Shown here: in pieces, positions 1,874-24,877 of the stretch | How positions within the stretch are numbered: position 1 is the first letter of the stretch | How the letters are laid out: the number at the start of each line of letters is the position of its first letter | The notes under the pieces: generated by a model | What the model saw: the letters and a program-made list of their open reading frames with translations, nothing else | What the model was told of the DNA's origin: nothing | The model's database searches: none | Program-made: the position numbers and the translations under genes | Assembly (NCBI RefSeq): GCF_000156195.1 | Contig: NZ_GG688322.1 | Span: 202,498-266,497 of the forward strand | DNA length: 64,000 bases | From: Bacteroides finegoldii DSM 17565 | Lineage (GTDB): Bacteria > Bacteroidota > Bacteroidia > Bacteroidales > Bacteroidaceae | Direction: 5' to 3'

Positions 1874-1960
1874 AACATTGCCGCAAGCAATTTTTCAGAG
1901 ATATGCGCTGAACAAATTGACTTGCGGTTAGTTTTTAATATACCAGCAACAACTATAAAT

Positions 1961-3162
1961 ATGAGAAAAGTACTGTCTTTTTCGGGCTTCCTGATGTTGG
2001 GGCTCGTCATTTCACAATTCCTGCCAATGATAGCAGGAGAGGGGTATGGAGTTGTCAAGTCCATTTCTAACGTATTGCTTTATGTATGTCTTAGTTTTAT
2101 AATGATTAACGTGGGCCGGGAATTTGTTCTTGACAAGTCCCGCTGGAAAAGTTATGCCGAAGATTATTTTATAGCGATGGCAACGGCTGCTCTCCCTTGG
2201 TTTATGATTGCTATTTATTATGTGTTCATATTACTTCCGCCCGATTACTGGAATAGCTGGGAGGCATGGAAAGAGAGAATCTGTTGCTAAGCCGTTTTGC
2301 CGCCCCTACCTCTGCGGGTATCTTATTTACAATGCTGGCTGCTATCGGATTGAAATCCAGTTGGATTTATAAGAAAATACAGGTGTTGGCTATCTTCGAT
2401 GATCTGGACACGATTATCCTGATGATTCCTCTTCAGATTATGATGATCGGTTTGCGCTGGCAGTTGATTATTGTAGTGGTGATTGTGTTTCTATTGCTGT
2501 CTATCGGCTGGCAGCGATTGAATAAATATGATTGGCGGCAGGATTGGAAGGCTATCCTCTTTTATTCTGTTATTATATTTCTGGCTACTCAGATACTTTA
2601 TCTTGGCAGCAAGGAACTATACGGAGAAGCGGGAAGCATTCATATCGAAGTGCTTTTACCGGCATTTGTTCTGGGAATGATCATGAAGCATAAAGAGCAT
2701 GATACACCGGTTGAACGGTCGGTTGCTACGGGAATCTCCTTTCTGTTTATGTTCCTGGTGGGGATGAGTATGCCTCATTTTATCGGAGTGAACTTTGCGG
2801 AGACTCATGCCGGTACACATTCGGTGACCGGTTCGCAGGAAATGATGTCGTGGGGAATGATTCTATTCCATGTCGTGATTGTTTCTTTACTGTCAAATCT
2901 AGGAAAACTTTGTCCGATGTTCTTCTATCGCGACCGGAAGTTGAGTGAGCGCTTGGCTCTTTCGATCGGTATGTTTACCCGTGGCGAAGTGGGAGCGGGG
3001 ATTATTTTCATAGCATTAGGATATAATCTGGGAGGTCCGGCATTGGTGATTTCAGTATTGACTTTGGTCTTGAACCTTATTTTGACAGGAATCTTTGTGC
3101 TTTGGGTGAAAAAACTGGCGCTGCGTTCCGTTACGACAAAGGGCACAACGATTCGTTCTTGA
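1961..3162 (+). pseudogene. Cation/proton antiporter gene, broken by a dinucleotide insertion
   Basis: Two overlapping reading frames together encode one polytopic membrane protein of about 400 aa resembling a Na+/H+ (CPA-type) antiporter. The first frame runs from ATG 1961 (MRKVLSFSGF) to a stop at 2290. The second is open from about 2266 to 3162 and continues the same protein (NLLLSRFAAPTSAGILF). At 2273-2278 the sequence reads GAGAGA; with one GA fewer the frames join as ...EAWKENLLLSRF..., so this is a 2-nt insertion in a short (AG)n tract. About ten hydrophobic segments are visible across the joined protein. The 122-aa and 298-aa pieces are unlikely to work separately. Sequencing error, true inactivation or slippage cannot be told apart here. 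Confidence 0.8.
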
Positions 3163-6013: not shown

Positions 6014-7480
6014 TTACAATATAATTCTGTCTACAACTTCAACTTTATTTTCTATCAATGCCTTTTCATCAGTTACTTCCAAGAATAAAGAGAGAGGAGA
6101 GAAGCCTATATATTTTCGGTTCTGTATCGTCAATATTCCAACAAAGTCATTGAGCATGATTTTCTTTAACCCTTCGTTGTTCTCTTTAGAGATGCGATAG
6201 TAATGTTGGTTGTTATTCTCATTCTCTTCTTCTTCAGAATTGTCCATTTGTATATAGATGAATTTTTCAGTGATGGCGATTGGGGCAGAAAGAAAAGTAT
6301 ATTCATTCTCTTCTGGATTATCTTTGGCATTGATTGATTTATACTCTTTTATCCGATTGGTTATTTGTTCCTCTTTTTTACTGTCTGTCAGTCTCGAAAG
6401 AGTCTTGAATCCCAGAAATGGTTCTCCGGCAAGTATTTCGCACAATTCAATTTTGTTAGGAAAGGTTTCGTTATCTAGCTTGCATTTATACCATGCTTGT
6501 TTGTCCATTTGTATTATCTTCTTTTCTATGATAAACTCCAAAATCGAGGAACTTTTGGCTGCATATAAAGTTAGATAATTCAGATTATTGAAGAATGAAA
6601 CTTCAAATTTATTGTATTCCACTTCCTTCCGGTCTATTTTAATTTTGTAGCGATAGAGGAAATAATCGAATGTCGCCATCTGCTCGAATTGCCAAAAGGT
6701 AGTAGTGTCAGAGGAAGTATCCGTGTCATACCAATAACATTCATCGATGTTTGGTACTTTTTTGTCCGAAACTGCATTTGAATCGTATGCATCTCCGGGA
6801 TTTGTAAGCGCACAAAAACATCCAAGAATCCGTTTGGTCATATCTATTAAAAATATCCGGTTTTTGTGTGTACACTGATTGAATGTATGCTTCATGATTT
6901 CCAGTACGGGAAGCTCCGTCAAATTTGGTGAATCTTTTACGAATCCTTCAAAGAAATGATAAACTCGTGCGAAGTCTGCATTAATATCCTTTACGTCTCC
7001 TTGTTTGGAATTATAGGGTGGAAGTATCTTTAATATAAGTAACAATAAGAATGGGACATCTACTTCGTTATTCTTATTGACGATATGAATCAGTTTATCA
7101 AGGTCTTTGTTCTTGCAATCCGGTTCCTGCAGGCCATCAGTGTAATAATAGCGGAGGAATGAATATAATAATTTGGGTTCCTGTAAGTCTATTCTTTTTT
7201 TCTTGATTTTATTTAGATAGATATCGGAAGCCTTTTGGTATTCTTCCAATTCTTTATCTATTTCAAAGGTTGAATAAGTATCACTGAATATTTGGCTACT
7301 CAATTCTCTGTATAAGCATCGTGCTGTGAAAGGTTTTATTTTGAGTATGCTGTTGTTGGTAGTCAGATTATATTCAATGTATTCACCAAACTCTTTTTTG
7401 GTGTTCCGAAATAATCTCAGTAAGCAGAGATCATTTAGGCGGTTGCGCAGTTGTATATTTTCTTTATCTTCATTTCTCAT
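6014..7480 (-). CDS. Hypothetical 488-aa protein, divergent from the NTPase operon
   Basis: I do not recognise the family. The product is soluble, acidic to neutral, rich in Lys/Asn/Glu, with no signal peptide and no convincing membrane segment. A low-complexity Glu/Asn stretch (NSEEEENENNNQ) lies near residue 425. The last 120 residues have a beta-strand-like pattern (FLSAPIAITEKFIYIQM, FVGILTIQNRKYIGFSPL) that could be a ligand- or DNA-binding module. The gene is transcribed away from the FtsZ/Hsp70/HerA operon across a shared intergenic region. That region holds the palindrome at 7494-7509, only 14 bases before this start codon. Position suggests a regulator or a partner of the operon; this is inference only. 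Confidence 0.7.
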   Translation of the reverse strand: MRNEDKENIQLRNRLNDLCLLRLFRNTKKEFGEYIEYNLTTNNSILKIKPFTARCLYRELSSQIFSDTYSTFEIDKELEEYQKASDIYLNKIKKKRIDLQEPKLLYSFLRYYYTDGLQEPDCKNKDLDKLIHIVNKNNEVDVPFLLLLILKILPPYNSKQGDVKDINADFARVYHFFEGFVKDSPNLTELPVLEIMKHTFNQCTHKNRIFLIDMTKRILGCFCALTNPGDAYDSNAVSDKKVPNIDECYWYDTDTSSDTTTFWQFEQMATFDYFLYRYKIKIDRKEVEYNKFEVSFFNNLNYLTLYAAKSSSILEFIIEKKIIQMDKQAWYKCKLDNETFPNKIELCEILAGEPFLGFKTLSRLTDSKKEEQITNRIKEYKSINAKDNPEENEYTFLSAPIAITEKFIYIQMDNSEEEENENNNQHYYRISKENNEGLKKIMLNDFVGILTIQNRKYIGFSPLSLFLEVTDEKALIENKVEVVDRIIL

Positions 7481-7493
7481 ATCTGCTAATATT

Positions 7494-7588
7494 TAGTATG
7501 TATATACTAATTATACCCTTATTTCCCATTTGGGAGACAAAAATATACTTTTATTGAAAGCGTTGCAAGCAAATATTAGCTTTCTTTG
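7494..7588 (+). promoter_or_regulatory. Operator and promoter block, copy 1 (shared with 21793-21887)
   Basis: Palindrome TAGTAT-N4-ATACTA at 7494-7509, then ATTATAC, then CAAATATT starting 76 bases after the palindrome start, and TTTCTTTG at 7581-7588, 87 bases after it. The same three elements occur at exactly the same spacing upstream of the first RavA-like gene, while the DNA between them has diverged. This is the signature of a conserved regulatory region. The last element is a one-mismatch version of the TAnnTTTG -7 box and points towards the FtsZ-like gene. Confidence 0.65.
7538..7545 (-). promoter_or_regulatory. -7 promoter box for the 488-aa gene
   Basis: On the minus strand it reads TATTTTTG, matching TAnnTTTG, 57 bases before the start codon at 7480. 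Transcription from here would cross the palindrome 7494-7509, so a protein bound there could block it. Confidence 0.45.
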
Positions 7589-7947: not shown

Positions 7948-8832
7948 ATGGAAAATGAAAAACAACACATACGAAAAACACTCTTAGTTGCCATAACCAG
8001 TGGGGCTACTAATCTGATGTCAATGACCATCTATCCTCATTTTAAGGACCGGTTTACTTATCTTGCCATTGAAAAGCAGGAAGGTTCAGTTTCATTTCTT
8101 TCTCATAATGATTTTACTTTTGATAGTTTAGTATTCACAACTTTTGGCGATTTTCCGGACATCGAAAAACGTTTATTGAGTTACATGGATAGGTTTGAAG
8201 AAATCATTCTTCTTTCTTGTCTTGGAAGACCTGTTAATGCCGAGTTGACAATCAGACTAGCTCATTTCTTTAGTTTTCAAAAGAAGAAGGTTATTTTAGT
8301 TGCTACGCTTCCTTTTGCTTTTGAAGGGAAGGAGCGGATTACTGAATCACTTTCGGTTATAAAGAAAATGAGAACCTTTCCCATTATATTACGGCTTAGT
8401 ATAGGAGAGAGGTTCTTGGAAGGGCGCGATTTGGATTCACTTCCCTTTGGAGAAATTCTAGAAAAAGTGGGTGAGGATATAATTACTCTTCTTGAAGGTA
8501 TCTGTGGTAATACGAATGAATCGGATTCTCAATCTTTAGATGAACAGATAGAATATATAGAGGCATATCGGGATGTGGCGGTTTCTAAAGCGCAGTCAAT
8601 CCGAAAATATGTAGAAGAACTTGCGTATGGAAATACGATTTTTCCAACAGATACTAAGATTTCCAGTGTAGATATTTTGACAGATGATGGTGAAAATCAA
8701 AGTAAACCGTTGGAAGAATATTGTGACGTTTATGAAATTGGATGGGGGTATTATAATGAAAAGCGATATAATCAGGCTGTACATCAGCTTATGCCATTAG
8801 CTAAAAACAAAGACAAGGTGGCACATTTCTAG
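7948..8832 (+). CDS. FtsZ/tubulin-like GTPase-fold protein (5' part of a frameshifted gene)
   Basis: The first 200 residues follow the FtsZ/tubulin pattern: LLVAITSGATNLMSMTIYP at the first nucleotide loop, then EEIILLSCLGRPVNAELTIR where FtsZ has the GGGTGTG loop, then KVILVATLPFAFEGKERI, which closely matches the FtsZ strand VTxPFxFEGxxR. The phosphate-binding loop glycines are largely replaced, so GTP binding may be weak or lost. Residues 200-230 look helical. The C terminus (YEIGWGYYNEKRYNQAVHQL) begins a Sel1/TPR repeat that is cut off by a stop at 8832. The next frame continues the protein, so a one-base indel near 8815-8822 splits an original product of about 470 aa. It is first in the accessory operon. 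Confidence 0.7.
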   Translation: MENEKQHIRKTLLVAITSGATNLMSMTIYPHFKDRFTYLAIEKQEGSVSFLSHNDFTFDSLVFTTFGDFPDIEKRLLSYMDRFEEIILLSCLGRPVNAELTIRLAHFFSFQKKKVILVATLPFAFEGKERITESLSVIKKMRTFPIILRLSIGERFLEGRDLDSLPFGEILEKVGEDIITLLEGICGNTNESDSQSLDEQIEYIEAYRDVAVSKAQSIRKYVEELAYGNTIFPTDTKISSVDILTDDGENQSKPLEEYCDVYEIGWGYYNEKRYNQAVHQLMPLAKNKDKVAHF

Positions 8833-8843
8833 TAGGACTCTCT

Positions 8844-9371
8844 TTGTTAAAATTGGGGGACGAACATTCTGCGCAGGTCTGGTTTCGGCGTGCTGCTAAT
8901 CAAGGAGAAAAGGCAGCCAAATTTTATGTTGGTTATTTATATGCTTTTGGTGAACATATAACTCATCAATATGACAAGGCGTTGAATTATCTCCAAGATG
9001 CGGCAGAAGATGGTGATGCAGATGCTCAGTTCCTAACAGCTTGGTTATATGAAGGTGGCTTAGGAATCAGTAAGGATATGAAAAAGGCACGAAAATGGTA
9101 TCAGCAAGCTGCAAAACAGAAACATCCGTTTACGGTTCAGAGGCTAGACACATTCATAGAACCTATATCTTGGGAACTGATAATTTCCTTTTTGGCTGTA
9201 GACCTATTATTGCTATTATCTTTTTTCACAGGTTGGGATCTTGTTTCCTTTATAATTTTGAATATCTGTGTGGTGACTCTTTTTTGTAGTTGGGTGTCAA
9301 GGCGGAAGAAATGCAATAGAAAGAGATGGAATAAAAATATGAGATTGTTGATTTGGAATAAAACAGTATAA
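8844..9371 (+). CDS. Sel1-repeat and membrane tail (3' part of the frameshifted FtsZ-like gene)
   Basis: The frame is open upstream of the TTG at 8844 and reads GTFLVGLSLLKLGDEHSAQ, which directly continues the interrupted repeat of the previous frame. It contains about three Sel1/TPR-like units (SAQVWFRRAANQGEKAAKFY, DADAQFLTAWLYEGGLGISK), then two hydrophobic segments (WELIISFLAVDLLLLLSFFTGW; LVSFIILNICVVTLFCSWV) and a very basic C-terminal tail (SRRKKCNRKRWNKN). The joined protein would be a tubulin-like domain tethered to the membrane through Sel1 repeats. Whether this fragment is translated on its own is doubtful. Its stop overlaps the next start as TAATG. Confidence 0.65.
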   Translation: MLKLGDEHSAQVWFRRAANQGEKAAKFYVGYLYAFGEHITHQYDKALNYLQDAAEDGDADAQFLTAWLYEGGLGISKDMKKARKWYQQAAKQKHPFTVQRLDTFIEPISWELIISFLAVDLLLLLSFFTGWDLVSFIILNICVVTLFCSWVSRRKKCNRKRWNKNMRLLIWNKTV

Positions 9372-9898
9372 TGTATTGTGGATTGGTAAAATATATAAAT
9401 AACGAAGAACACTACGCTTTACTGATGGAGCAAATCGACAAAGTAAAGCATACTCTTTGGATCGGCACCGCTGATTTGAAGGATCTTTATGTGAAGCCCT
9501 CTTCAACAGTTGTTCCATTACTTCAACTTTTGGAAACGAAAGTGAAGCAGAAAGTGGCGATACGTCTGATTCATGCGAAAGAACCCGGTACGAATTTCCG
9601 TGCTGATTTTGATAAATATCCTCTTCTTTGGGCGGGGATGGAGCGTGTCCTTTGTCCTCGTGTACATTTTAAACTTCTTATTTTTGATATGTGCTCTGTT
9701 TATATTGGCTCAGCCAACATGACAGGTGCGGCTTTCGGTATGAAAGGTGAAAGAAATCGGAATTTTGAAGCCGGTATCTTCACGGAGATACCGGAAGTGG
9801 TGACAAATGCGGTGAAACAATTTGATGAAGTCTGGATGGGGAAGTATTGTAAAGGATGTGGGAGGAAGAGGTTTTGTGGAGATAGAATATTAATTTAA
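9371..9898 (+). CDS. Single-domain phospholipase D-like (HKD) protein
   Basis: 175 aa with one PLD catalytic motif: HFKLLIFD (H-x-K-x4-D) followed by SVYIGSANMTGAAF, the GSxN signature, around residues 98-120. Single-HKD proteins of this size, such as the Nuc nuclease, work as dimers; the family includes nucleases and phospholipases. A Cys cluster near the end (YCKGCGRKRFC) could bind zinc. No signal peptide, so probably cytosolic. The ATG overlaps the upstream stop, which indicates translational coupling with the FtsZ-like gene. The substrate cannot be told from sequence. Confidence 0.85.
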   Translation: MYCGLVKYINNEEHYALLMEQIDKVKHTLWIGTADLKDLYVKPSSTVVPLLQLLETKVKQKVAIRLIHAKEPGTNFRADFDKYPLLWAGMERVLCPRVHFKLLIFDMCSVYIGSANMTGAAFGMKGERNRNFEAGIFTEIPEVVTNAVKQFDEVWMGKYCKGCGRKRFCGDRILI

Positions 9899-9910
9899 TA
9901 TACTGAAATT

Positions 9911-10105
9911 ATGGAAGATAAAAATTTATTGGAAAAGGGAGGAGATTTCCTTTTGGAGAATAGTGGTAGGGCATTACTGTTAGGTAAGGACCCTATATCT
10001 GTTGGTTTGGGAGTTGCGACAGCTACTACTCAAGTTATAGTAGGTGGAGCATTGAAAGGAACTGGTAAATTAGTGAAAATGTTTATGGATAAGAAAAAGA
10101 AGTAA
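9911..10105 (+). CDS. Small protein with a Gly/Ala-rich hydrophobic segment
   Basis: 64 aa, family unknown. It has an acidic N terminus (MEDKNLLEKGGDFL), a Gly/Ala/Val-rich middle (SVGLGVATATTQVIVGGAL) and a Lys-rich C terminus (KMFMDKKKK). The pattern suggests membrane association. It is in the same direction as, and 12 bases after, the PLD-like gene, and starts after an A-rich spacer. Confidence 0.6.
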   Translation: MEDKNLLEKGGDFLLENSGRALLLGKDPISVGLGVATATTQVIVGGALKGTGKLVKMFMDKKKK

Positions 10106-10161: not shown

Positions 10162-10569
10162 ATGTTTGGATTAGAGTTTGTTGCGGGGCGGTTTGTAAAA
10201 GCAACATTAAAATCTGCTGCCAATCAAGTGTTATCAGACAAGATTGCTCGTACAGTCAAAAGGCATGCTTGGTGTGCTTCCTTAGTGATGATATTACCTA
10301 CATTTGGCTTAGATTCATTTCTTTTCATTGGTGTGCTATGGCATATGTATAGCAAAATTTGTGATTTGGTGAATATCCCATTTTGGGAACATTTTGTATC
10401 AACATGTTTGATTGCTATTCTTGTCAACTTTGCATTTGCATTTGTTGCAAGTATGGTTTTGAGTTTTATACCATTGGGAGATTCGCTACTTGCGTTTGTT
10501 CAAATCATGTTGTCAGGTATCGCTTATATGAAAGCGTTGACAATGAAGTATGACTTAAAAGCAGAATAG
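10162..10569 (+). CDS. Small integral membrane protein
   Basis: 135 aa with three to four hydrophobic helices (ASLVMILPTFGLDSFLFIGV; FVSTCLIAILVNFAFAFVAS; SFIPLGDSLLAFVQIMLSG). The basic N terminus (RFVKATLKSAANQVLSDKIARTVKRH) is amphipathic. The arrangement faintly resembles the DUF697 membrane module that accompanies some GTPases, but I cannot support that firmly. It sits between two very small proteins in the accessory operon. Confidence 0.65.
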   Translation: MFGLEFVAGRFVKATLKSAANQVLSDKIARTVKRHAWCASLVMILPTFGLDSFLFIGVLWHMYSKICDLVNIPFWEHFVSTCLIAILVNFAFAFVASMVLSFIPLGDSLLAFVQIMLSGIAYMKALTMKYDLKAE

Positions 10570-10724: not shown

Positions 10725-10800
10725 AATAGTGGGGTGTGGGAATGAATAGAAACCATACAAATCGGTAAATCAATAATTGATTCATATAATAAATAAAAAA

Positions 10801-11604
10801 ATGGAAGTAGATTATACATTATCCTCTATGTTTGAATCAAACAAAAAGGAGTTGGAGAATAAACTTAAAGATTTGGTTTTGCCCAAAGATGCAAGTAAGG
10901 TTCAAAGAATAGTTATGGGTGCATTGAATACCATGTTTGAGAATGATGGTGAGTATCGACAAGGCTTAACTCAATCAGAAGATTATATTCTGATTGCAGC
11001 TATAGAACTACTTAATGCGCAACAAAACATAGTACGCGAAATTGTAGCAGGAATGGAAGGAGGAACTTATGTCTCTTTGAACAAAGCCAATAATCAATGT
11101 AGACAAAAGGAGAAGAACTCCTATCTGTGGATGGGAACTGTTACAGGAGCAGTTGTGGGTACAATGTCCGGCATCTTCTTAGATACTTGGAAGGCTGTTT
11201 TCTGTGCCATTGCAGGTTCTGCCGTTGTGATATATGGTGTTACTTCTTTGCATAAAACGAAATCAACGGAAAAAGAGAGCGTATCTTGTCCCATAGATAC
11301 TCAGGTATTTGTGAATATTGTGAAAACGGTGTGTGAAAAGATTGATGGTTTGATAGAAACATATCGTGTGCAAGTAACTCGGGTAAAAAATATGTACAAA
11401 CAAAGAGAAAAGCCCTCTTTGCAAAGAGATTATCCTTTGTTGCTTCAAGCTATTCAAGCATTGGTGGCTATAGAGCAGAACACCGGTGAGCCGGATAAGA
11501 GAATGAAAAAAGTAGAGAAAAAGATCGCCGATCTTTCTGAAACATTGGAAAATTATGGTTTGTCCGTTGTAGACGGAAAAATCACAGAAATTGTAACATT
11601 ATGA
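10801..11604 (+). CDS. Helical membrane protein coupled to the Hsp70-like gene
   Basis: 267 aa from the ATG at 10801, chosen over the upstream ATT/ATA-rich frame because A-rich DNA precedes it. About 105 residues of helical cytosolic sequence precede two adjacent membrane helices (YLWMGTVTGAVVGTMSGIFL and AVFCAIAGSAVVIYGV, about 110-150). A second helical and partly coiled-coil part follows, ending ENYGLSVVDGK. The last four bases overlap the Hsp70-like start (ATGA), a sign of stoichiometric co-translation. A partner or nucleotide-exchange role for the neighbouring Hsp70-like ATPase is possible, but homology to GrpE is not demonstrable by eye. Confidence 0.75.
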   Translation: MEVDYTLSSMFESNKKELENKLKDLVLPKDASKVQRIVMGALNTMFENDGEYRQGLTQSEDYILIAAIELLNAQQNIVREIVAGMEGGTYVSLNKANNQCRQKEKNSYLWMGTVTGAVVGTMSGIFLDTWKAVFCAIAGSAVVIYGVTSLHKTKSTEKESVSCPIDTQVFVNIVKTVCEKIDGLIETYRVQVTRVKNMYKQREKPSLQRDYPLLLQAIQALVAIEQNTGEPDKRMKKVEKKIADLSETLENYGLSVVDGKITEIVTL

Positions 11605-12350
11605 GTAAAATACCATTGGTAAAGCCCGATAAAAGTCGGCATGAATACGTAGTCGGAATAGATTTTGGACACGGAGAGACATCAGCAGCCTATTGTAAAT
11701 TGGAATGGGATAAGGATGCCGGACAGAGAGAATCTGCCGTTTCTGACATAGAATTTGCAGGTAGTCTGAGAGTGCTTCCATCGGCGATTAGTATCACTCT
11801 GGATGGAAGAGAACATATCGGAAGTGACGCTTTCCGATTGGATTCAATGACCTCCAATACTAAAACGAGAGTCTGTTTTAAACAATGCCCTGAAGATATT
11901 AAGGGTGAACCGGAGCAGCTGATGATTGCCTATATGCGCGCGGTATATGCAAAGATTCTTGAAAAAACAGATAAGTTGAAAAAAGGTAACCATATTGTAT
12001 ATATTGCTCGACCGTCGGGATGGAAGGATGACGAAGTGAAAGATTTGTATAAAAGGATGGCAATAGCAGCCGACATACCATTGGGAGGTTTGACTTCAGA
12101 ATCACGTGCTGCCATTTTTTATGCAATGAACAAAGATGAATTCCGCAAGAATATATCGAGAGGAGGGATTGTTTTTGATTTAGGTTCAAGTACATTAGAC
12201 TTCACCTATTTGACTTTGGATGACCCTTCCAGCATAATAGATGATGGAGAACCCTGTGGGGCATCTCTGATTGAACAGACGATTTTTGAGCAATTGTTGC
12301 TAAAGGATGATAGGTTCTCGGATTTTCTAAAAAAAATATCCTGCATGTAA
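11601..12350 (+). CDS. Hsp70-like ATPase, N-terminal part (frameshifted gene)
   Basis: Actin/Hsp70-fold ATPase domain. Phosphate-1 motif GIDFGHGETSAA lies at about residues 19-30 (Hsp70 has GIDLGTTNS), and phosphate-2 motif GGIVFDLGSSTLDF near 193. The frame ends prematurely after an A8 run at 12329-12336 (...FLKKISCM). With seven As it would read on as FLKKYPACKDALLFKVREEK and join the next frame, giving a protein of about 639 aa. The start overlaps the preceding gene by four bases. Hsp70-like ATPases of this kind use ATP-driven opening to act on partner proteins; no substrate-binding beta domain is seen here. Confidence 0.8.
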   Translation: MSKIPLVKPDKSRHEYVVGIDFGHGETSAAYCKLEWDKDAGQRESAVSDIEFAGSLRVLPSAISITLDGREHIGSDAFRLDSMTSNTKTRVCFKQCPEDIKGEPEQLMIAYMRAVYAKILEKTDKLKKGNHIVYIARPSGWKDDEVKDLYKRMAIAADIPLGGLTSESRAAIFYAMNKDEFRKNISRGGIVFDLGSSTLDFTYLTLDDPSSIIDDGEPCGASLIEQTIFEQLLLKDDRFSDFLKKISCM

Positions 12351-12369: not shown

Positions 12370-13518
12370 GTGAGAGAGGAGAAGGAAGCAGTTTATAATA
12401 GAATAGATATGGATACGAGTGTCCGTGTGAAAATAGACTTGGAGCAATTATCAAGTTACTTGGAAGAAAAGGACGCTGCTAAATATGAGGATGTTGCATT
12501 GAAATTAAAGTTTTCAAGCGTAAATGCTTTCAATGATTGGTTGGAACAAACATGTCATTATAAGACACGTATCAAAGAGGCTATAAAGAATTTTCAAACT
12601 AAACATCTCCGAGGTAAAGAGGTTTATGGAGTTTATCTTGCCGGCGGAGCGACAAGAATGAACTTTTTAAAGCCGCTTGTCGCAGAGATGTTCCAGCTTT
12701 CGGATGAGCAAGTGAAAAGCGGCGGAGCTGACTCTTCGTTGGTAGTATCAAGAGGAATTGCGCTTTTAGGAACAGTCGATGCGATAGTTGATGTATTGAG
12801 GAAAGATTTGGAAAAAGAAAAGATGAAGTTGGTCGAACCTCAAAGACTGCGCGAGAGCATGGATATACTGATTGAAAATATGGCAGGTGTTATTTCGGAG
12901 ACTTCGTGGAGTGTGGTACATGAAGCTTGTTTGGATTTTAAAAGAAAAGACTTGGATAAGAAATTAGGCGTAAAAGACTTGGAAGGTGATATCCGTTCGA
13001 AATTGGAGAAGTTTTCTGAGAGCGGGGTGTTGTCTGTTATTTCCGGAGTCTTTAATCAGTTTTTTCAACGTGAGGGTGAAAATGTCAGGAAAGAGTTGAA
13101 TAAAATTATTTGTAAGTATGCCCCTGGACAAGAAATAAAGAATGTGCATAATGCGGTTTCGAATATAAGTTTGGATACACAAAACATCTCCGATATATGT
13201 ATGAAACACACATCGGGCATTATCAGTAAAATGTTGTGGGCGGCTCTTGGCATATTCTTGTTTGGAATCTTTTCGATTATATACCAGACAATCAAATATT
13301 TGATATATAGATTTAAGTCGGAGGAGAGTAGGCGCAAAGATATCTGTCATGAACTTGAAAAGAATGAGTCGAAGATAAAAGCTGGTATTAAAACGGAACT
13401 AGTTAAACAGTTTTCGCAAGATGCTTCGTTTGTCAATGTCGTGTCGAAAGAGTTGGAGACTTATCTTTCAAAGTTGATTCAAAGTAATATAGACAGAGTA
13501 AAAATTGCAATTGAATAA
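12370..13518 (+). CDS. Hsp70-like ATPase, C-terminal part with membrane anchor
   Basis: Continues the Hsp70-like protein after the A8 frameshift. The frame is open from about 12337; GTG 12370 is only the first possible start. It contains the adenosine-binding motif VYLAGGATRMNFLKPLV near residues 87-103 of this piece, then a helical region. A strong transmembrane segment follows (MLWAALGIFLFGIFSIIYQT, about 288-310), then a basic and coiled C terminus (VSKELETYLSKLIQSNIDRV). A membrane-spanning C-terminal tail instead of a peptide-binding domain is unusual for Hsp70 relatives. The stop at 13518 overlaps the region just before the HerA-like start. Confidence 0.75.
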   Translation: MREEKEAVYNRIDMDTSVRVKIDLEQLSSYLEEKDAAKYEDVALKLKFSSVNAFNDWLEQTCHYKTRIKEAIKNFQTKHLRGKEVYGVYLAGGATRMNFLKPLVAEMFQLSDEQVKSGGADSSLVVSRGIALLGTVDAIVDVLRKDLEKEKMKLVEPQRLRESMDILIENMAGVISETSWSVVHEACLDFKRKDLDKKLGVKDLEGDIRSKLEKFSESGVLSVISGVFNQFFQREGENVRKELNKIICKYAPGQEIKNVHNAVSNISLDTQNISDICMKHTSGIISKMLWAALGIFLFGIFSIIYQTIKYLIYRFKSEESRRKDICHELEKNESKIKAGIKTELVKQFSQDASFVNVVSKELETYLSKLIQSNIDRVKIAIE

Positions 13519-13531
13519 AAAACAGATCGAG

Positions 13532-16261
13532 ATGGAAAAAGGTAATGAAATAATGCCTCAAAATGAGGGAAAAAGTGAAGATCGTTTCGAACCAATAGCT
13601 AAGATATTGGCGGCTAATGCCGTTGCCAAGTCTTTGTCTTTTACGATGGAACGGAAATACTTGAATGAGATAAATAAAGAAGGTCAGATTTATGATGGAT
13701 TTAGATTGGAATCTGTTCATCGGTTTGATTCTCCATTGGCTCCATATTGGATAGAGATAGAACGTATCGGAAAGCCGCTTGATAATAATGTGGAAAATTG
13801 TTTTTCTGCTATACAAAAGATTCTTTCCACGTGTTCTTTACCAAAGAAAATCCAATTGCTTTTTCTTGTACATAGTGAAGATGGTGTTTGCCATCTTTAT
13901 ATAGGTATCCGCCCAGTTGCAGGTAAAGAGGTGAAATCATCTTTCGTGGATAGTTTAGCTGATTTCATAGAAGGCATCTGGCCGGGAGTGAAATGTGTGG
14001 TCGTTAAGGGTAGAAATCGTTTAAATTTTATATCTGACAAGATTAAAGACGAAGAAAAAGGATACGATTATATTTATTCCATAACCGGTATTCCTTCTAT
14101 GGAGAGCCAGTATAAGTCAATTTATCCGGCAACGATAGATAAATTGATTGCGGGAATGAGGAAGAAGAACTTTTCATATTTAGTCGTTGCAGATCCAGTT
14201 CTCGAACAAGAGATTGATGAAATATTGTATAAATGCAGGGATTTTAATGGACAGGCAGAGTCTTTGAAGTCGTTTAATTTTTCGGAAAGTGATTCTAAAG
14301 GAAGCAGTAGTTCTTATTCTTATGGAAAAAGTATGTCAAAATCAATTTCTCAAGAAAGTACAAATAAAGGATGGCAATTAGCAGGTGTCGGATTAATGTT
14401 AGCTTCTGCATTTTTTCCACCTGCAGGAGCTGTTACAACAGCTTTGGCTTTAGGTACTTCTTTCTTGAGAGCATCCCAAAATATAGCAGGGGTAAATTTG
14501 TTGACGGCTTTTTCTCCTCGAAAAACAAAGGGGTATTCAGAAGGAACGACAGAATCGGAAACTACAGGATTTAGCCAAAGTCAAAGTAAAACTATTAGTC
14601 AGAATTTGGTTAATAAGCATATCGAATCTGTTTCAGAACATTTGTTTTATCATTCTAAACGGTTTGAGACGGGAAAGGCTATCGGCTGTTGGAACGTAGG
14701 TGTTTATCTAATGGCAGAAAAGGAAGCGGATATTCAAAGTGGTTCGTTGCAATTAAGGTCAATATTAAGTGGCCAGGAATCTATATTTGAACCGATACGT
14801 ATCCATGATATATCTTCATTGGTTGACCGAGATAAGAACAATACGTTGGCATTAATGGCACCACCGACGATACGTATTAAAACACCTTCTGGTGAATATT
14901 TCGAGCATCCGTTAGGTGAGCAGTTCAAGGAATTGAAAACTCTTCTTACTACCAAGGAGCTTTCTTATCTGATTAATTTTCCGTTACGTGCTGTTCCGGG
15001 AATTAGCGTAATAGACAGTTCACCTGAATTTAGTCTGAACCAGCAGGACGAAGAGAAAGAAAAGGATATTGCATTTGGAAAATTATTATATGGCGGAACT
15101 GAGACAAAGCTCAATTACCATATTCCTATAGATGTATTATCTCGCCACACTTTGCTTTCCGGAATCAATGGTAGCGGTAAGACGAATACGGTTCAAGCAA
15201 TATTGAACGGTTTGGATATGGATTGCCCGTTTTTGGTAATTGAACCGGCAAAGACGGAATACATAGATTGGGCATTGCATTATAATGAATTGCATCCAGA
15301 GCATCCTATTGATATTTATATTCCCGGCTGTAAGAAGTACAAGACAGGTTATGAACCTAAAACACTGAAGTTGAATCCTTTTGAGTTGGTTTGGTTGAAA
15401 GAAGAATTAGAACCGAATGTGCTGACGCATATCGACCGCTTGAAGTCGACTTTTGCAGCCGCGTTTCCTATGTATGATATTCTTCCTGTTCTGATGGAAG
15501 ATTTGATTTATACGGTTTATCAGAATAAGTCTACAGACTGGTTAGGAAAAGAACCTGTATTTGGGGCTACTCTACCTCCTACACTAAACAGTATGAGCGT
15601 TTGTGTGGATAAGGTTATTTCCAACCGTCAGTATGAGGAACGGATAGAACGCAATATGAAAGCGTGTCTGAATACTCGTATTGATAGCTTGAAAAGGGGA
15701 TGGAAAGGAGAAATGCTGAATACTTTGCATTCTACTCCTTGGTTAGATTTATTTGGCAAACGGTGTGTCATCAATCTTTCGTATGTGGGAGATGATATTG
15801 ACAAGTCGTTCTTCATGGCTTTGATTCTTCAATTCTTATATGAGTATCGCACGGCGCAAGCCGAAGTGGGGGAAATTGATTTCAATGACAATACGTGTCG
15901 GCATTTAACGGTTATTGAAGAAGCACATCGAGTGATGCCGAGATGTGAGAATCAAGAACTTCCCCAATATAAATCGGCAATGATGTTCAGTAATATGTTG
16001 TCGGAAATTCGGGCGTATGGCGAAGGTATGCTCTTGGTAGACCAAGTGCCGACACGTCTGATTCCGGACGCAATTAAGAACACGAACCTGAAAATAACGC
16101 ATCGTCTGGTCGCTGAAGATGATTGTAAAGCAATCGGTGAATCAATGGGGCTGAATGATGAGCAACGTAAGATAATAGCAAAATTGCTGACAGGACAATG
16201 CGTGGTTTCTAATTCATTATCTACAGATACATATTGGGTTCAAGTAAATAAGGTAAAATAG
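13532..16261 (+). CDS. HerA/FtsK-like DUF87 ATPase with long N-terminal domain
   Basis: 909 aa from ATG 13532; the TTG at 13505 overlaps the previous gene and is less likely. The C-terminal half is a HerA-type ATPase with Walker A SGINGSGKTNTVQA near residue 545, Walker B LTVIEEAHRVMP near 791, and LLVDQVPTRLIPDA as the sensor-like strand. HerA-family motors form hexamers that move DNA or act with nucleases. The N-terminal 530 residues hold a Ser-rich patch (SESDSKGSSSSYSYGKS), a hydrophobic segment (WQLAGVGLMLASAFFPPAGA) and a second Ser/Thr-rich patch. This suggests membrane contact or a linker. It ends two bases before the next gene, so the ATPase and the HNH-zincin protein are very probably a pair. 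Confidence 0.88.
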   Translation: MEKGNEIMPQNEGKSEDRFEPIAKILAANAVAKSLSFTMERKYLNEINKEGQIYDGFRLESVHRFDSPLAPYWIEIERIGKPLDNNVENCFSAIQKILSTCSLPKKIQLLFLVHSEDGVCHLYIGIRPVAGKEVKSSFVDSLADFIEGIWPGVKCVVVKGRNRLNFISDKIKDEEKGYDYIYSITGIPSMESQYKSIYPATIDKLIAGMRKKNFSYLVVADPVLEQEIDEILYKCRDFNGQAESLKSFNFSESDSKGSSSSYSYGKSMSKSISQESTNKGWQLAGVGLMLASAFFPPAGAVTTALALGTSFLRASQNIAGVNLLTAFSPRKTKGYSEGTTESETTGFSQSQSKTISQNLVNKHIESVSEHLFYHSKRFETGKAIGCWNVGVYLMAEKEADIQSGSLQLRSILSGQESIFEPIRIHDISSLVDRDKNNTLALMAPPTIRIKTPSGEYFEHPLGEQFKELKTLLTTKELSYLINFPLRAVPGISVIDSSPEFSLNQQDEEKEKDIAFGKLLYGGTETKLNYHIPIDVLSRHTLLSGINGSGKTNTVQAILNGLDMDCPFLVIEPAKTEYIDWALHYNELHPEHPIDIYIPGCKKYKTGYEPKTLKLNPFELVWLKEELEPNVLTHIDRLKSTFAAAFPMYDILPVLMEDLIYTVYQNKSTDWLGKEPVFGATLPPTLNSMSVCVDKVISNRQYEERIERNMKACLNTRIDSLKRGWKGEMLNTLHSTPWLDLFGKRCVINLSYVGDDIDKSFFMALILQFLYEYRTAQAEVGEIDFNDNTCRHLTVIEEAHRVMPRCENQELPQYKSAMMFSNMLSEIRAYGEGMLLVDQVPTRLIPDAIKNTNLKITHRLVAEDDCKAIGESMGLNDEQRKIIAKLLTGQCVVSNSLSTDTYWVQVNKVK

Positions 16262-16263
16262 TA

Positions 16264-17964
16264 ATGATGTTGTTCTGCAAGCAAAACATGGACGTTTTGA
16301 CTGTTTCAAGTGAAAACTTGAAGCAGTCTGTACTATCTCCCAATGAGATAGATTATTTGAGAGAAGTGGATGTCATGAATGATTTTGAGACGTATCAGAA
16401 TCGTTTGAATGAAATAAAAGAATTGTCTTGTGTAAATGAGAAGCAAATACTTAGTTTGTTGGATTCCCTGGAGAGAGAACAATATTTTTCTCAGGAGTAT
16501 GAAGAATTATGTAAACAAGTAAGTTTAGAGCGGGAAGATTACCAAAAGATTAAGGATTTTTCGTTGGACCATAATTTGGATATAAAGGTAAATAGCGGTT
16601 CTCTTGATTTGATAAATGAAGACAAGGTTGTAGTAGTAAGTCTGGATTCTGTTCAAAAAACAGGAGAAGTACTGATAGGGGAGCATTATTATCGTCGTAC
16701 GGAAAACTATTACACGAATGTGCAAAGAGGAGAATTTCGTTTGCCTGGGTATGAAATTAAAGATACTTATAACGTGTACGGTCCTAACAGCAGTTTGACA
16801 GGAAGTATAAAGGTGGTTGAAGTGAATGGGACAAAATACGAAATTCCCATAGTCAAGGAAGAAAGACAATATCATGGTATGTTAGTGCGTACTTATGGTA
16901 CTCCGGATTTTAAAAAATATGCGGTTGCCACTATTTCGATAAAAGAGGATGCTGTGATAAGAGACGCTTCTTCTCATAAAAAAGAAGCTACACGGATATT
17001 GGCTCAAAATTTTATCGAGGGCAAACATTTTCCGGGGACATTTACCGAACAGCAAGAATTGGCTTTGCGGGAAATAGCCAATGGTAAAGTGGCTGAAACA
17101 ATACTCGGTTTAACCCCTCATCATTCAGGCAATGCGGAAATGCAATATGTACCTACGGATTTGCATAAGGCTGTCAATCATTTAGGAGGCAGTTGGCTAA
17201 TGAATGAGAAAAATTACTTTAAAGGATTTGAATGTCATGATACGGAACAGATTCGTAGTAACTTATCTTCTTCTCAGTTGGAGTATATTAGCGAAATATT
17301 GCCATTAAAAGATGCAGATTTGTTGATTGACAGAATTGATGAATTAAATGATATGGAAGGTTTTCCTCCCAAGGCAATTGATTCGGATGAAGGGGTGGCA
17401 AAGTTATTAGAATCAATACAGCACGATATCAATCCTTTGTATTTGGAGGCACCGCAAGACGCTGTTCAGATAGAAGAAATATCAGAAACAATGAGCTGCA
17501 TGAAAGAACTGAATTATAATGAATGGAAAGAAATATCTTTTGATAAGCGGATGGAGGTATTACAGGAATTAGAAAATAATATTGCTGAGATTGCTCATCG
17601 TCCGTCTTGCGAAGTTTGTGCTAAAAAACTTGGTGATGGTCATATGGGTTATTATTCGCAAGATTCTAATAAGATTGTAATAAATAGTGACTTCATTAGT
17701 TCTAATTCCGAAAAGGCATACAATAACGTTTTAGAAACATTAGTCCATGAAGGACGTCATGCGTATCAATGTTATAATTTATATGAGAGAGAGGTGCATC
17801 CGCGTCAAGGAGAGATCTCTAATTGGCGTATGAACGAAATTGAATATGGGTATCAAGACGTGAAACATTTCGGATTTAAAATTTACGAGATGCAACCTGT
17901 AGAAGCGGATGCACGGGCTTTTTCAGAAGATGTATTTAAAAGTTATATGGATAAAAAAGCATAA
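16264..17964 (+). CDS. Two-headed effector candidate: HNH-type nuclease plus zincin metallopeptidase
   Basis: 566 aa with no signal peptide. The N-terminal 150 residues are helical or coiled. Around residues 280-315 it reads LTPHHSGNAEMQYVPTDLHK followed by AVNHLGG. This matches the HNH/Endonuclease VII-fold WHH/LHH toxin nucleases (xxHH....MQLVP..LH....H.GG). Near 495 it has LVHEGRHAYQ, an HExxH-like zinc site (H-E-G-R-H), followed about 50 residues later by PVEADARAFSEDV, a suitable third ligand. A CEVCAKKLGDGH patch near 450 could also bind metal. It directly follows the HerA-like ATPase. Fusion of a nuclease and a protease domain suggests a toxin or defence effector; activity is inferred. 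Confidence 0.78.
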   Translation: MMLFCKQNMDVLTVSSENLKQSVLSPNEIDYLREVDVMNDFETYQNRLNEIKELSCVNEKQILSLLDSLEREQYFSQEYEELCKQVSLEREDYQKIKDFSLDHNLDIKVNSGSLDLINEDKVVVVSLDSVQKTGEVLIGEHYYRRTENYYTNVQRGEFRLPGYEIKDTYNVYGPNSSLTGSIKVVEVNGTKYEIPIVKEERQYHGMLVRTYGTPDFKKYAVATISIKEDAVIRDASSHKKEATRILAQNFIEGKHFPGTFTEQQELALREIANGKVAETILGLTPHHSGNAEMQYVPTDLHKAVNHLGGSWLMNEKNYFKGFECHDTEQIRSNLSSSQLEYISEILPLKDADLLIDRIDELNDMEGFPPKAIDSDEGVAKLLESIQHDINPLYLEAPQDAVQIEEISETMSCMKELNYNEWKEISFDKRMEVLQELENNIAEIAHRPSCEVCAKKLGDGHMGYYSQDSNKIVINSDFISSNSEKAYNNVLETLVHEGRHAYQCYNLYEREVHPRQGEISNWRMNEIEYGYQDVKHFGFKIYEMQPVEADARAFSEDVFKSYMDKKA

Positions 17965-18946: not shown

Positions 18947-20608
18947 ATGAGTAAAGAAATAGATGAATATAAAAAAAAGGCTGAGCAAGGTGATGCGGAA
19001 GCTCAGTGTAGTTTGGGTGATTGCTATCGTTTAGGTCTGGGCGTGGAGCAGGATTATTCCGCAGCCTTCAAATGGTATCAGTTATCTGCCGAACAAGGAT
19101 ATTCGGACGCTCAATTTTGTTTGGGAACTTTATATGAAGAAGGTCTCGACGTAGAGCAAAATTTAGAATTAGCTGTCGATTGGTATCGTAAGTCTGCCGA
19201 GCAAGGTAATGCAGAAGCTCAATATCTCTTGGGTGATTGCTATCGTGTAGGTCTAGGCGTGGAGCAGAATTATTCCGCAGCCTTCAAATGGTATCAGTTA
19301 TCAGCTGAACAGGGAGATCTGGACGCTCAATATTATTTAGGACTTTTATATGGAGAAGGTGCTGGAGTAGAGCAGAATTTAGAATTAGCAGTCGATTGGT
19401 GTCGTAAGTCTGCCGAACAAGGTAATGCAGAAGCTCAGTGTAGTTTAGGTGATTGTTATCGCTCAGGTCAAGGCGTGGATCAGGATTATTCCGCAGCCTT
19501 TAAATGGTATCAGTTATCTGCTGAGCAGGGATATTCGGACGCTCAATATTGTTTAGGACTTTTATATGGAGAAGGTGCTGGAGTAGAGCGAAACTCAGAA
19601 TTGGCTGTCGATTGGTATCGTAAGTCTGCTGAACAAGGAAATGCAGATGCTCAATGTCTTTTAGGAGCTTGTTATGGTCTAGGTGATGGAGTGGAGCAAG
19701 ATGATTTTATGGCTTTCAGATGGTATCAGTTATCTGCCGAACAGGGAAATTCTGTCGCTCAATGTTGTTTGGGTGATTACTATCGTTTAGGTGATGGTGT
19801 GGATCAGGATTATTCCGCAGCCTTCAAATGGTATCAGTTATCAGCTGAACAGGGAGATCTGGACGCTCAATATTATTTAGGGCTTTTATATGGAGAAGGT
19901 GCTGGAGTAGAGCAGAATTTAGAATTAGCAGTCGATTGGTGTCGTAAGTCTGCCGAACAAGGTAATGCAGATGCTCAATGCGCTTTGGGGGATTATTATC
20001 GTTTAGGCCAAGGTGTGGAGCAGGATTATTCTGAATCTATCAAATGGTATCAGTTATCAGCCGAACAGGGAAATTCTATCGCTCAATATTGTTTAGGTTT
20101 TTTGTATAGAGAGGGTGTCGGAGTAGAGCAAAATTTAGAATTGGCAGTCGATTGGTATCGTAAATCTGCTGATCAGGGTAATGCAGACGCTCAATGTTGC
20201 TTGGGTGATTGCTATCGTTTAGGTCAAGGTGTGGAGCAGAATTATTCTGAATCTTTCAAATGGTATCAGTTATCAGCCAGACAAGGGAACTCGGTCGCTC
20301 AACTTTATTTAGGAGTTTTATATGATGAAGGTGTCGGAGTAGAGCAAAATTTAGAATTAGCAGTCGATTGGTATCGTAGGTCTGCTGATCAGGGTAATGC
20401 CGGAGCTCAATGTTGTTTGGGTGATTGCTATCGTTTAGGTCAAGGTGTGGAGCAGGATTATTCCGTAGCCTTCAAATGGTATCGGTTATCTGCCGAGCAG
20501 GATTATTCGGACGCTCAGCTCCGTCTAGGAGTTTTGTATGCAGAAGGTCTCGGAGTAGAGCAAAATCTAGAATTGGCAGCAGATTGGTATCGTAAGTCTG
20601 CCGAATAA
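18947..20608 (+). CDS. Sel1-repeat protein, main part (interrupted by TAA)
   Basis: 553 aa made almost wholly of 36-residue Sel1/TPR-like units, 15 up to the stop. Two types alternate: A (LGDCYRLGxGVEQDYSAAFK ending WYQLSAEQG) and B (LGLLYxEGxGVEQNLELAVD ending WYRKSAEQG). Units 7 and 8 are both type A, so the alternation slips once. No signal peptide, so a cytosolic scaffold is likely; Sel1 arrays bind partner proteins. The frame ends at TAA 20606-20608 where every other unit has CAA (Gln), and repeats continue in frame afterwards. It is a nonsense mutation rather than a natural end. Confidence 0.8.
   Translation: MSKEIDEYKKKAEQGDAEAQCSLGDCYRLGLGVEQDYSAAFKWYQLSAEQGYSDAQFCLGTLYEEGLDVEQNLELAVDWYRKSAEQGNAEAQYLLGDCYRVGLGVEQNYSAAFKWYQLSAEQGDLDAQYYLGLLYGEGAGVEQNLELAVDWCRKSAEQGNAEAQCSLGDCYRSGQGVDQDYSAAFKWYQLSAEQGYSDAQYCLGLLYGEGAGVERNSELAVDWYRKSAEQGNADAQCLLGACYGLGDGVEQDDFMAFRWYQLSAEQGNSVAQCCLGDYYRLGDGVDQDYSAAFKWYQLSAEQGDLDAQYYLGLLYGEGAGVEQNLELAVDWCRKSAEQGNADAQCALGDYYRLGQGVEQDYSESIKWYQLSAEQGNSIAQYCLGFLYREGVGVEQNLELAVDWYRKSADQGNADAQCCLGDCYRLGQGVEQNYSESFKWYQLSARQGNSVAQLYLGVLYDEGVGVEQNLELAVDWYRRSADQGNAGAQCCLGDCYRLGQGVEQDYSVAFKWYRLSAEQDYSDAQLRLGVLYAEGLGVEQNLELAADWYRKSAE
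19271..19431 (+). repeat. Near-identical 161-base direct repeat, copy 1
   Basis: This block and 19811-19971 differ at one base as far as I can see and lie exactly 540 bases (five 36-aa units) apart, whereas other units in the array have diverged. That indicates a recent internal duplication or gene conversion within the Sel1 gene. Confidence 0.75.
19811..19971 (+). repeat. Near-identical 161-base direct repeat, copy 2
   Basis: Partner of 19271-19431. The repeat offset of five units explains the two consecutive type-A units just before this copy. Confidence 0.75.
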
Positions 20609-20632
20609 GGTCATGAAGAAGCTCAATGTTGT

Positions 20633-20860
20633 TTGGGTGATTGCTATCGTTTAGGTGATGGTGTGGAGCAGGATTATTCCGCTGCTTTCAAATGGTATCA
20701 GTTATCTGCTGAACAAGGTGATCCGGAAGCTCAATTTAATTTGGGATCTATGTGTGAAAAAGGTCTTGGAGTGGAGCGGAATCTAGAATTGGCAATAGAT
20801 TGGTATCGTAAGTCTGCCGAACAAAATTTTGAGGAAGCTGTTGAGGCTTTGAAAAAATAG
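20633..20860 (+). CDS. Sel1-repeat protein, end fragment after the premature stop
   Basis: Continues in the same frame as the main Sel1 gene after TAA 20606-20608. It adds the last two units (LGDCYRLGDGVEQDYSAAFK; LGSMCEKGLGVERNLELAID) and a short tail EAVEALKK. Without the stop the gene would run 18947-20860 and encode 637 aa with 17 units. The fragment may not be translated; the start shown (an internal TTG) is only the first possible one. Confidence 0.5.
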   Translation: MGDCYRLGDGVEQDYSAAFKWYQLSAEQGDPEAQFNLGSMCEKGLGVERNLELAIDWYRKSAEQNFEEAVEALKK

Positions 20861-21009
20861 ATGAATAATTAGGTATATCTGAAGAACGTGCTGTGTACGG
20901 AAATAGAAACTTATGAGATGCTAATTGAAAGCTCGAAAGTGAGAGGTGTAGGAGCTTCCTTTTAACTCAGTTTTCGTTAGCGTCTTTTTAATTGGATTTG
21001 GATTAACTG

Positions 21010-21393
21010 ATGATACGCTTTGATGCAATGACGATTGAGGATGAAGAAAAGAGTGAAGATGAGAGGATGAAAAAGAAAGCTTTAAAATTGGCAATAGATT
21101 GGTATCGTAAGTCTGCCGAGCAAGATAATGAGGAAACTGTTGGGGCTTTGAATATTGAAGAATTGTTTTCCATCCATTCTTTGCATTACGAGGTGTTGGA
21201 AGGCGACAAGGCGGGTATTTCATCAATCAGGGTGAACGATCAATACCGAATCAAATTTACCGTATTCAACCAAGAAGCCGAAACGGTTGTCTATATTTGT
21301 AATATATTGGAATCTTCTGTCCGTATGCTTTGCCGAAAATATATAGACGAAGTAAGCGATTCTTCTACACAAGCTAAGCATTTTATACAGTGA
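21010..21393 (+). CDS. Chimeric ORF: Sel1 unit joined to RelE/HigB toxin C-terminal half
   Basis: 127 aa. The first 45 residues contain part of a Sel1 unit nearly identical to the end of the upstream array (LAIDWYRKSAEQ). From about residue 48 the sequence switches to a RelE/HigB-type toxin pattern (LHYEVLEGDKAGISSIRVND, QYRIKFTVF, TVVYICNIL). The toxin N terminus and any antitoxin gene are missing. It is most likely a recombination scar that happens to keep an open frame, though it could be expressed. The stretch 20861-21009 before it holds no gene. Confidence 0.5.
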   Translation: MIRFDAMTIEDEEKSEDERMKKKALKLAIDWYRKSAEQDNEETVGALNIEELFSIHSLHYEVLEGDKAGISSIRVNDQYRIKFTVFNQEAETVVYICNILESSVRMLCRKYIDEVSDSSTQAKHFIQ

Positions 21394-21484: not shown

Positions 21485-21792
21485 GTCGTAGTTATTCGAC
21501 AGTAGCAGATGAGTCATAAAGAAATAGATTGAAATGGAGATAATGGTCTGATGAACAGTGTGTTATCGGAAAAGTGCAATTTTATTTCCGAAAAGAGTAA
21601 AAACGACCGTATGTTTTTTGTAAACTTATTTAAAATCAGGGAATTTTTATTCGTTAATTAGTTGATTATAAGCGGTGTGACATTTTTTCCCCCCGTATAA
21701 AACTTAAAATAGATACAATTTTGTTGCACGGAAAAAGTATATTCGAAGTAGGTTAGCTAGTGGTTTGGATAGAATGATGAAGATTAATAATC

Positions 21793-21887
21793 TAGTATAA
21801 ATATACTAATTGTACTCTATTCATTGAAGTTAGGGATAGCTTTTTATTTTATTTGAGATTGTCTGAAACAAATATTGTTTTTCTTTG
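21793..21887 (+). promoter_or_regulatory. Operator and promoter block, copy 2, before RavA-ViaA pair 1
   Basis: TAGTAT-N4-ATACTA at 21793-21808, CAAATATT at 21869-21876 and TTTCTTTG at 21880-21887. Offsets from the palindrome start are 76 and 87 bases, the same as at 7494-7588. The -7-like box lies 30 bases before the chosen start codon. Confidence 0.65.
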
Positions 21888-21916
21888 CATCACAAGAAAA
21901 AGGGTTATTGAGAAAA

Positions 21917-24846: not shown

Positions 24847-24877
24847 TTGGGTATACTTATTTTATCTGCAATCTGTT

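Follow-up and report, generated by a model that had tools for sequence, protein, structure and literature searches.

Can an FtsZ-like domain that has lost its phosphate loop, and that runs on into Sel1 repeats and membrane helices, still be a GTPase that forms filaments, or is it a scaffold or sensor? The question is raised by a gene of Bacteroides finegoldii DSM 17565 that lies in a 64,000-nucleotide stretch of contig NZ_GG688322.1, the whole of which we refer to as the window (Table 1). A first-pass annotation, made from the letters and their open reading frames (ORFs), had proposed that the protein could be a pseudo-GTPase scaffold or sensor rather than a filament former. We examined its sequence, its predicted fold, its relatives and its gene neighbourhood.

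Table 1. Features of the half-FtsZ gene, the gene run behind it and the MoxR-vWA genes (positions of the window)
Positions	Strand	Feature	Basis
7948..8832	+	First ORF, 294 aa: half-FtsZ domain (aa ~8-196), helical linker, start of repeats
7993..8013	+	Degenerate T1 loop ITSGATN (FtsZ: GVGGGGxN)	alignment
8215..8250	+	Degenerate T4 phosphate loop SCLGRPVNAELT (FtsZ: AGMGGGTGTGAA; four relatives: G-x-x-T-G-[ST])	alignment
8299..8340	+	VATLPFAFEGKERI, covering strand S5 and the beginning of H5; retains the T, P, F, E and G that are invariant in FtsZ
8832..8844	+	Frame change splitting the half-FtsZ gene; lesion or sequencing error
8844..9371	+	Second ORF, 175 aa: Sel1 repeats (~8910-9125), hydrophobic helices (~9171-9233 and ~9237-9296), basic tail
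9371..9898	+	PLD-superfamily nuclease-like protein; start overlaps the preceding stop	PLDc_2 4.4e-13
9911..10105	+	64-aa protein	no family
10162..10569	+	135-aa protein, three hydrophobic segments	no family
10777..11604	+	275-aa protein, one hydrophobic segment; the 275 aa-Hsp70-HerA order that recurs elsewhere begins with it
11601..12350	+	N-terminal part of an Hsp70-like protein; a frame change splits its gene
12370..13518	+	C-terminal part of the Hsp70-like protein, with a hydrophobic segment	Pfam HSP70 0.003, below cut-off
13505..16261	+	HerA/FtsK-type ATPase, 918 aa	DUF87 9.1e-5, just below cut-off; PADLOC HerA 7.8e-12
16264..17964	+	Effector-like protein of 566 aa; resembles Colicin-DNase/WHH in one region and DUF6782 at the C-terminus, which has HEGRH	Pfam matches all below cut-off
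21875-23485		bpMoxR protein	bpMoxR 7.2e-54
23464-24846		vWA protein	VWA_CoxE 9.2e-07
24914-26500		bpMoxR protein	bpMoxR 9.7e-53
26460-27935		vWA-type protein	VWA_2 0.012, below cut-off

A split gene and its FtsZ-like head

The two ORFs occupy different frames, and the gene is thus split at about 8832-8844. By eye, the first ORF stops and the second starts within a helical repeat; we therefore took the two as parts of one gene, and the two halves were searched separately, unjoined. The second ORF matched Pfam Sel1 in two stretches (E 9.1e-17) and holds two hydrophobic 19-mers with Kyte-Doolittle means of 2.31 and 2.40, which bears out the Sel1 repeats and the two membrane helices of the first-pass annotation. 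That annotation had also read one segment as a clear FtsZ-type strand and another as a replacement of the glycine-rich phosphate loop. Both readings held in the alignment: in the strand, the FtsZ motif T-x-P-F-x-F-E-G still has its T, P, F, E and G, and the replacing segment aligns with the T4 loop of FtsZ.

Taken alone, the FtsZ likeness of the first ORF is borderline at the sequence level. In Pfam, no tubulin family matched the ORF at E<=1, and a phmmer search of the PDB returned a single match at E<=10, the FtsZ of T. maritima (E 0.77). With the window protein as query, 301 genomes of its family yielded a 176-aa relative (P0003, in genome G051; E 4.1e-4). P0003 clears the Pfam Tubulin cut-off (2.6e-13), and so does a second relative, L105 (4.9e-12). 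When P0003 was itself the query, a match at E<=0.01 was found in 391 of 395 genomes of the phylum; 28 of the 30 loci fetched with this query fit the FtsZ start motif and became our FtsZ reference set, and the other two were dropped. A match in G166 (33%, residues 184-252) was set aside as chance: it falls inside a 679-aa frame that looks by eye like a membrane transporter.

A profile of four relatives, built without the window protein, was searched against the 4.89-Mb genome in which the window lies. At E<=10 it found only FtsZ (8.7e-25) and the window gene (3.0e-8). This profile scored the window protein at 35.7 bits and gave none of 2,000 shuffles more than 9.3. Together, the scores and the presence of only two genome matches place the likeness to FtsZ beyond chance. 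When 1,674 ORFs were ranked by an FtsZ profile that included P0003 and by one that did not, the window protein came directly behind the FtsZs and half-FtsZs both times (E 0.0036 and 0.039, the next ORF having 1.2 and 1.5). At the level of sequence, homology of the window protein to FtsZ is found through the half-FtsZ profile.

The structure prediction that the first-pass annotation had called for was carried out for the first ORF alone and gave a tubulin-like fold. AlphaFold2 without an alignment produced a poor model of the whole ORF (pLDDT 44), with residues 150-294, which lead into the Sel1 repeats, below pLDDT 50 and a long helix at 197-224 predicted with low confidence. Forty of the 44 PDB matches of this single-sequence model at E<=0.001 were FtsZ or TubZ; the remaining four were two chains each of 2hun and 6vlo. 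A model from three rows (the window domain and two relatives) reached pLDDT 67 and pTM 0.69, with 43 of 200 residues below pLDDT 50, and its confidence is moderate. Foldseek gave 85 matches to it at E<=0.001, and the 50 listed were all FtsZ or TubZ. VIA, a re-examination of Foldseek's own matches, likewise gave FtsZ or CetZ for all 50 rows listed (Z 14.3-16.2, rmsd 3.1-5.8, 170-192 residues). Most of the listed VIA alignments stop near FtsZ residue 207, which we take to lie past helix H7 and immediately ahead of the T7 loop. On these models, the first ORF carries a tubulin-fold N-domain, a half-FtsZ domain that corresponds to the front half of FtsZ, from strand S1 to helix H7. The tubulin-like fold by itself is, as modelled, nearly certain.

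A small family with graded motif loss

At least five half-FtsZ domains were found in Bacteroidales: that of the window, P0003 of G051 (a Bacteroidaceae record), those of G025 and G007, which belong to the window's family, and L105, from a Candidatus Avimuribaculum contig of the same order. The gene counts are lower bounds, with short frames (212-319 aa) of G748, G837 and G750 standing outside them. Short frames in L110 and L117 were rejected, being ordinary FtsZ ended by a contig edge. In a tree, the five domains fall on one side of a branch (99/100); the branches are very long, and the grouping need not mean a single origin.

A scan of genome contigs with the window protein alone gave no half-FtsZ match. 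The same scan with the three-row profile gave two loci, the G051 gene again (identical, under its public name) and the new L105. No half-FtsZ was confirmed in viral contigs scanned with the window protein and the half-FtsZ profile, and plasmid and phage collections gave no match at E<=0.01. PADLOC had no match for the window protein (P0001) or P0003 at E<=0.01, nor for the half-FtsZ fusion of G007 at E<=0.001. We found no published half-FtsZ family, and no FtsZ-like protein with Sel1, GmrSD or SspH, in a literature search whose coverage left out most subscription journals. The family is apparently small and undescribed.

How much of FtsZ is left differs widely between its members. Of 64 columns invariant in the 28 Bacteroidota FtsZs, the relatives retain 30, 25, 27 and 20, and the window protein retains 10. 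The residues of T1, T4, T6 and H7 contact the nucleotide in FtsZ. All four relatives keep the T1 Gly (column 8), the T4 pattern G-x-x-T-G-[ST], the T6 Asn and the H7 Asp. In the window protein the T1 Gly is Thr, T4 reads GRPVNAE, and Gly replaces both the T6 Asn and the H7 Asp, a replacement seen in this protein only. As the relatives keep the T-G-[ST] core, the Asn and the Asp, their sequences suggest that all four may still bind GTP. With these contacts gone, normal GTP binding would not be expected of the window protein.

Other losses are common to the family. FtsZ columns 48-57, the lead-in to T3, are gaps in all five half-FtsZs, with P0003 still carrying GAG there. The T7 motif N-x-D-x-x-D was absent from the first ORF and the four relatives and was found in 26 of the 28 FtsZ frames; without the T7 loop, hydrolysis of the FtsZ type would not be expected. 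The four relatives terminate at or just past H7, and no C-terminal FtsZ domain was recognised in the window protein. Compared with FtsZ (PF00091), the window protein has the same predicted S1-H7 fold and the T-x-P-F-x-F-E segment but lacks the T7 motif, the T3 lead-in, a recognised C-terminal domain and the nucleotide contacts, and it adds Sel1 repeats and membrane helices.

Divergent FtsZ relatives have been described before. In the available part of Makarova and Koonin (2010; PMC2875224), FtsZl1 and FtsZl2 have new C-terminal parts and a GTP-binding loop; in FtsZl1 the loop reads GGGTG(S/T)G, most members also have a coiled coil with a helical C-domain, and most FtsZl1 operons hold a vWA gene. 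Bacteroides caccae appears there in a figure legend, with the family unspecified. Like FtsZl1 operons as presented in that part, the window has vWA-type genes, two of them, 14-19 kb downstream. Unlike FtsZl1 as characterised in the same pages, the window protein has lost the loop, and a Sel1 and membrane part follows. Set against FtsZl1 and FtsZl2, two short relatives scanned alone match PF00091.

The gene neighbourhood

In the window, the half-FtsZ gene heads a co-directional run in which neighbours overlap or are separated by gaps of at most 207 bases. Several of the neighbour labels in Table 1 rest on sub-threshold Pfam matches and are to be read as sequence-based suggestions. The Hsp70 label, also assigned by sequence, is thin: a homologue in L070 clears Pfam HSP70 (1.7e-8), and those in L056, L057, L058, L060 and L063 had no Pfam HSP70 match at E<=0.1. 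A phmmer search of the L056 homologue against the PDB found no Hsp70; its best match (E 1e-4), of a helical stretch to a viral spike fragment, was discarded as chance.

Part of this run recurs elsewhere. A HerA match at E<=1e-10 was present in 23 of 301 family genomes, and in 16 HerA loci that were fetched the order 275 aa-Hsp70-HerA occurred in 12 and Hsp70-HerA in 14. A recognised half-FtsZ was found at one of the 16 (G025), about 6.4 kb downstream of HerA. The half-FtsZ gene is outside the recurring 275 aa-Hsp70-HerA core. The ORF that follows HerA in related loci matches the 566-aa protein only from residue 313 on. Of 101 family genomes, 14 had the PLD type of the window at E<=1e-30, including its own and G025, whose PLD protein is 67% identical to that of the window. 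With PLD genes at two of five half-FtsZ loci, the association is suggestive, and defence-type genes cluster anyway.

G+C is 0.34-0.39 at 6-24 kb versus 0.41-0.46 at 1-6 and 24-36 kb, as in acquired DNA. Farther along the window it climbs to 0.49-0.58 past 38 kb (38000-64000) and, within that part, drops to 0.36 at 56-58 kb. Rfam gave no match at gathering score in 5000-30000, and the window holds no tRNA. The minus strand encodes, at 6014-7480 and divergent from the half-FtsZ run, a protein of 488 aa that no Pfam family matched at E<=1. A 29-base stretch, near-palindromic by eye, occurs at 7491-7519, just upstream of this divergent gene, and again (83% alike) at 21790-21818, upstream of the first MoxR gene; it may be a shared operator. 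The stretch 18947-21393 holds a Sel1 array of 36-aa (108-base) units; a HigB-like ORF at 21010-21393, whose Pfam match is just below cut-off, starts with another 70-base copy of the repeat (90%).

Starting 12.5 kb downstream of the half-FtsZ gene are two bpMoxR/vWA pairs. By sequence, these tandem pairs (21875-27935) are candidates for a MoxR-vWA conflict system; PADLOC had no match for the first pair. MoxR-vWA systems include rare FtsZ/tubulin and FtsK domains, with Sel1 in one subsystem, and GTPase conflict systems include tubulin with Hsp70, according to the accessible portion of Kaur et al. (2020; PMC7159879). Unlike the systems as that portion describes them, the window joins half-FtsZ to Sel1 repeats and membrane helices and has a HerA-like protein as partner ATPase.

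The relatives' loci have neighbours of a similar kind. At the G025 locus, half-FtsZ is accompanied by two proteins with a hydrophobic helix, an FtsK-like ORF pair and the PLD protein; a Sel1 protein is encoded upstream. The G051 and G007 loci each hold an FtsK-like protein and two of the GmrSD type; in G007, half-FtsZ is part of a fusion, sitting behind a domain of about 225 aa (L102 7266-8483). The same domain is a separate gene in L105 (58% identical over 211 aa), where half-FtsZ adjoins a 493-aa protein with two hydrophobic helices that is 62% identical to one in G007. The L105 half-FtsZ lies 800 bases from the contig start, and no nuclease, FtsK or other Pfam-recognised protein was found among the neighbours scanned there. 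Neighbours in L102, L105 and L034 are, as we take them by eye, uracil-glycosylase-like; those of L105 and L034 have no Pfam family, and the L034 protein gave no blastp match to the L102 and L105 ones at 1e-5.

Overall, four of the five half-FtsZ loci have nuclease-like or FtsK/HerA-type genes. Among the four relatives, three are near FtsK/SspH-like genes, two near GmrSD-type genes and one near a PLD gene. Three FtsK-like neighbours match the C-terminal part of PADLOC SspH (2.5e-48, 8.5e-28 and 1.4e-32). Four neighbours are GmrSD-type (Pfam GmrSD_N); three of them match PADLOC Orf5 and HEC-06, and two of those three also match SspE. The resemblance to Ssp/Dnd-type defence lies in FtsK-like genes at three of five loci and in neighbours that match parts of SspH or SspE. 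The window departs from it: a HerA-like protein is there instead, and no GmrSD match was seen.

A proposed membrane-tethered adaptor and its rivals

Judged by its motifs and architecture, the window protein probably neither polymerises nor acts as a GTPase and serves as an adaptor or sensor tethered to the membrane, with the proviso that a protein without these motifs might still bind GTP. The tubulin-like fold, the lost phosphate loop, the Sel1 repeats and the helices make a pseudo-GTPase rather than a filament former the likeliest reading, as the first-pass annotation had proposed. It had the fold, the lost loop, the repeats and the helices; what it overlooked was the front-half extent of the domain, the loss of the T6 Asn and H7 Asp, the family and the defence-like gene run.

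We propose that the protein is an adaptor or sensor with a half-FtsZ head, tethered to the inner membrane, in an anti-phage or conflict system. Taken as a whole, we consider this statement moderately probable. The two hydrophobic helices and the basic tail suggest a hairpin that would anchor the protein in the inner membrane and leave the head and the Sel1 repeats in the cytoplasm. Lacking T7 and the contacts of T1, T4, T6 and H7, the S1-H7 head would not bind GTP in the normal way, and would neither hydrolyse it nor build FtsZ-type filaments. The Sel1 repeats would bind a partner, and the head would hold or sense a partner, be it a component of the system or host FtsZ, at the membrane. If the run is a single operon, the adaptor would serve the PLD nuclease-like, Hsp70-like, HerA-like and HNH/metallopeptidase-like proteins encoded behind it. 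We infer the defence role from the gene context.

Alternatively, the gene may be a decaying pseudogene, a former half-FtsZ-Sel1 gene that is losing its motifs and its frame. Three breaks lie within 13 kb: at 8.8 kb in half-FtsZ, at 12.4 kb in the Hsp70-like gene (12350/12370, where there is a run of eight A; copies in L056 and L063 are intact) and at 20.6 kb in the Sel1 array (in-frame stop at 20606-20608). The gene run may be decaying, and of the five half-FtsZs the window protein has the lowest retention of FtsZ-invariant columns. Yet the model shows an intact fold, the S5 segment has survived, and sequencing error is a live alternative, given the eight-A run and a split in another gene. This gene, antiporter-like by eye, occupies two frames at 1922-3162 and is open in all three matching relatives (12 searched), which suggests sequencing errors in the assembly or strain-level loss. 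Because so ordinary a gene is also split, the half-FtsZ frame change may itself be a sequencing error. We regard the pseudogene as rather unlikely.

A direct link to cell division also deserves consideration. Half-FtsZ could cap or titrate FtsZ or a phage tubulin, or it could bait or co-sense phage proteins that attack FtsZ, and so couple division arrest to immunity. The four relatives, which keep T4, T6 and H7 and have neither T7 nor a C-terminal domain, have the shape expected of a one-sided cap. There is also a precedent, since the CapRel defence protein uses FtsZ as a co-sensor together with Gp0.4 of phage T7, according to the available text of PMC13423816. The same text places the binding of Gp0.4 (predicted) and of SulA and MciZ (known) on the synergy-loop face of FtsZ, and this face is absent from half-FtsZ. 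Moreover, the T3 lead-in is deleted in all five domains and the GTP face of the window protein is eroded. On balance, such a link seems improbable to us.

That the domain is only a Rossmann-like alpha/beta domain resembling FtsZ by chance, as the lack of a significant Pfam match to the ORF alone, the PDB match to FtsZ at E 0.77 and the four non-FtsZ/TubZ matches of the first model might suggest, is scarcely credible in view of the genome profile search, the shuffles, the Foldseek and VIA results and the intermediates P0003 and L105.

Our preferred reading is the membrane-tethered adaptor or sensor. A bolder version, which we hold to be distinctly unlikely as stated, would make half-FtsZs a modular immunity part, most of them binding GTP without being able to hydrolyse it or to polymerise, and serving at the FtsZ ring as a one-sided cap, a bait or a co-sensor. 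In that case the window protein would be a membrane-fixed, pseudo-GTP-binding version that reads the division status, or an attack on FtsZ, and releases the neighbouring nuclease and translocase effectors. Division-linked immunity of this kind is now testable because FtsZ has been shown to act as a co-sensor in phage defence, as reported in the accessible part of PMC13423816.

Taken together, these results add a one-domain FtsZ relative without the catalytic-loop motif, joined to repeats and membrane helices and set amid nuclease-like and translocase genes. If its contact with FtsZ is true, it would be a division-linked immune part. The series that leads from the motif-keeping relatives to the motif-less window protein also bears on when a tubulin-fold protein ceases to be a GTPase.
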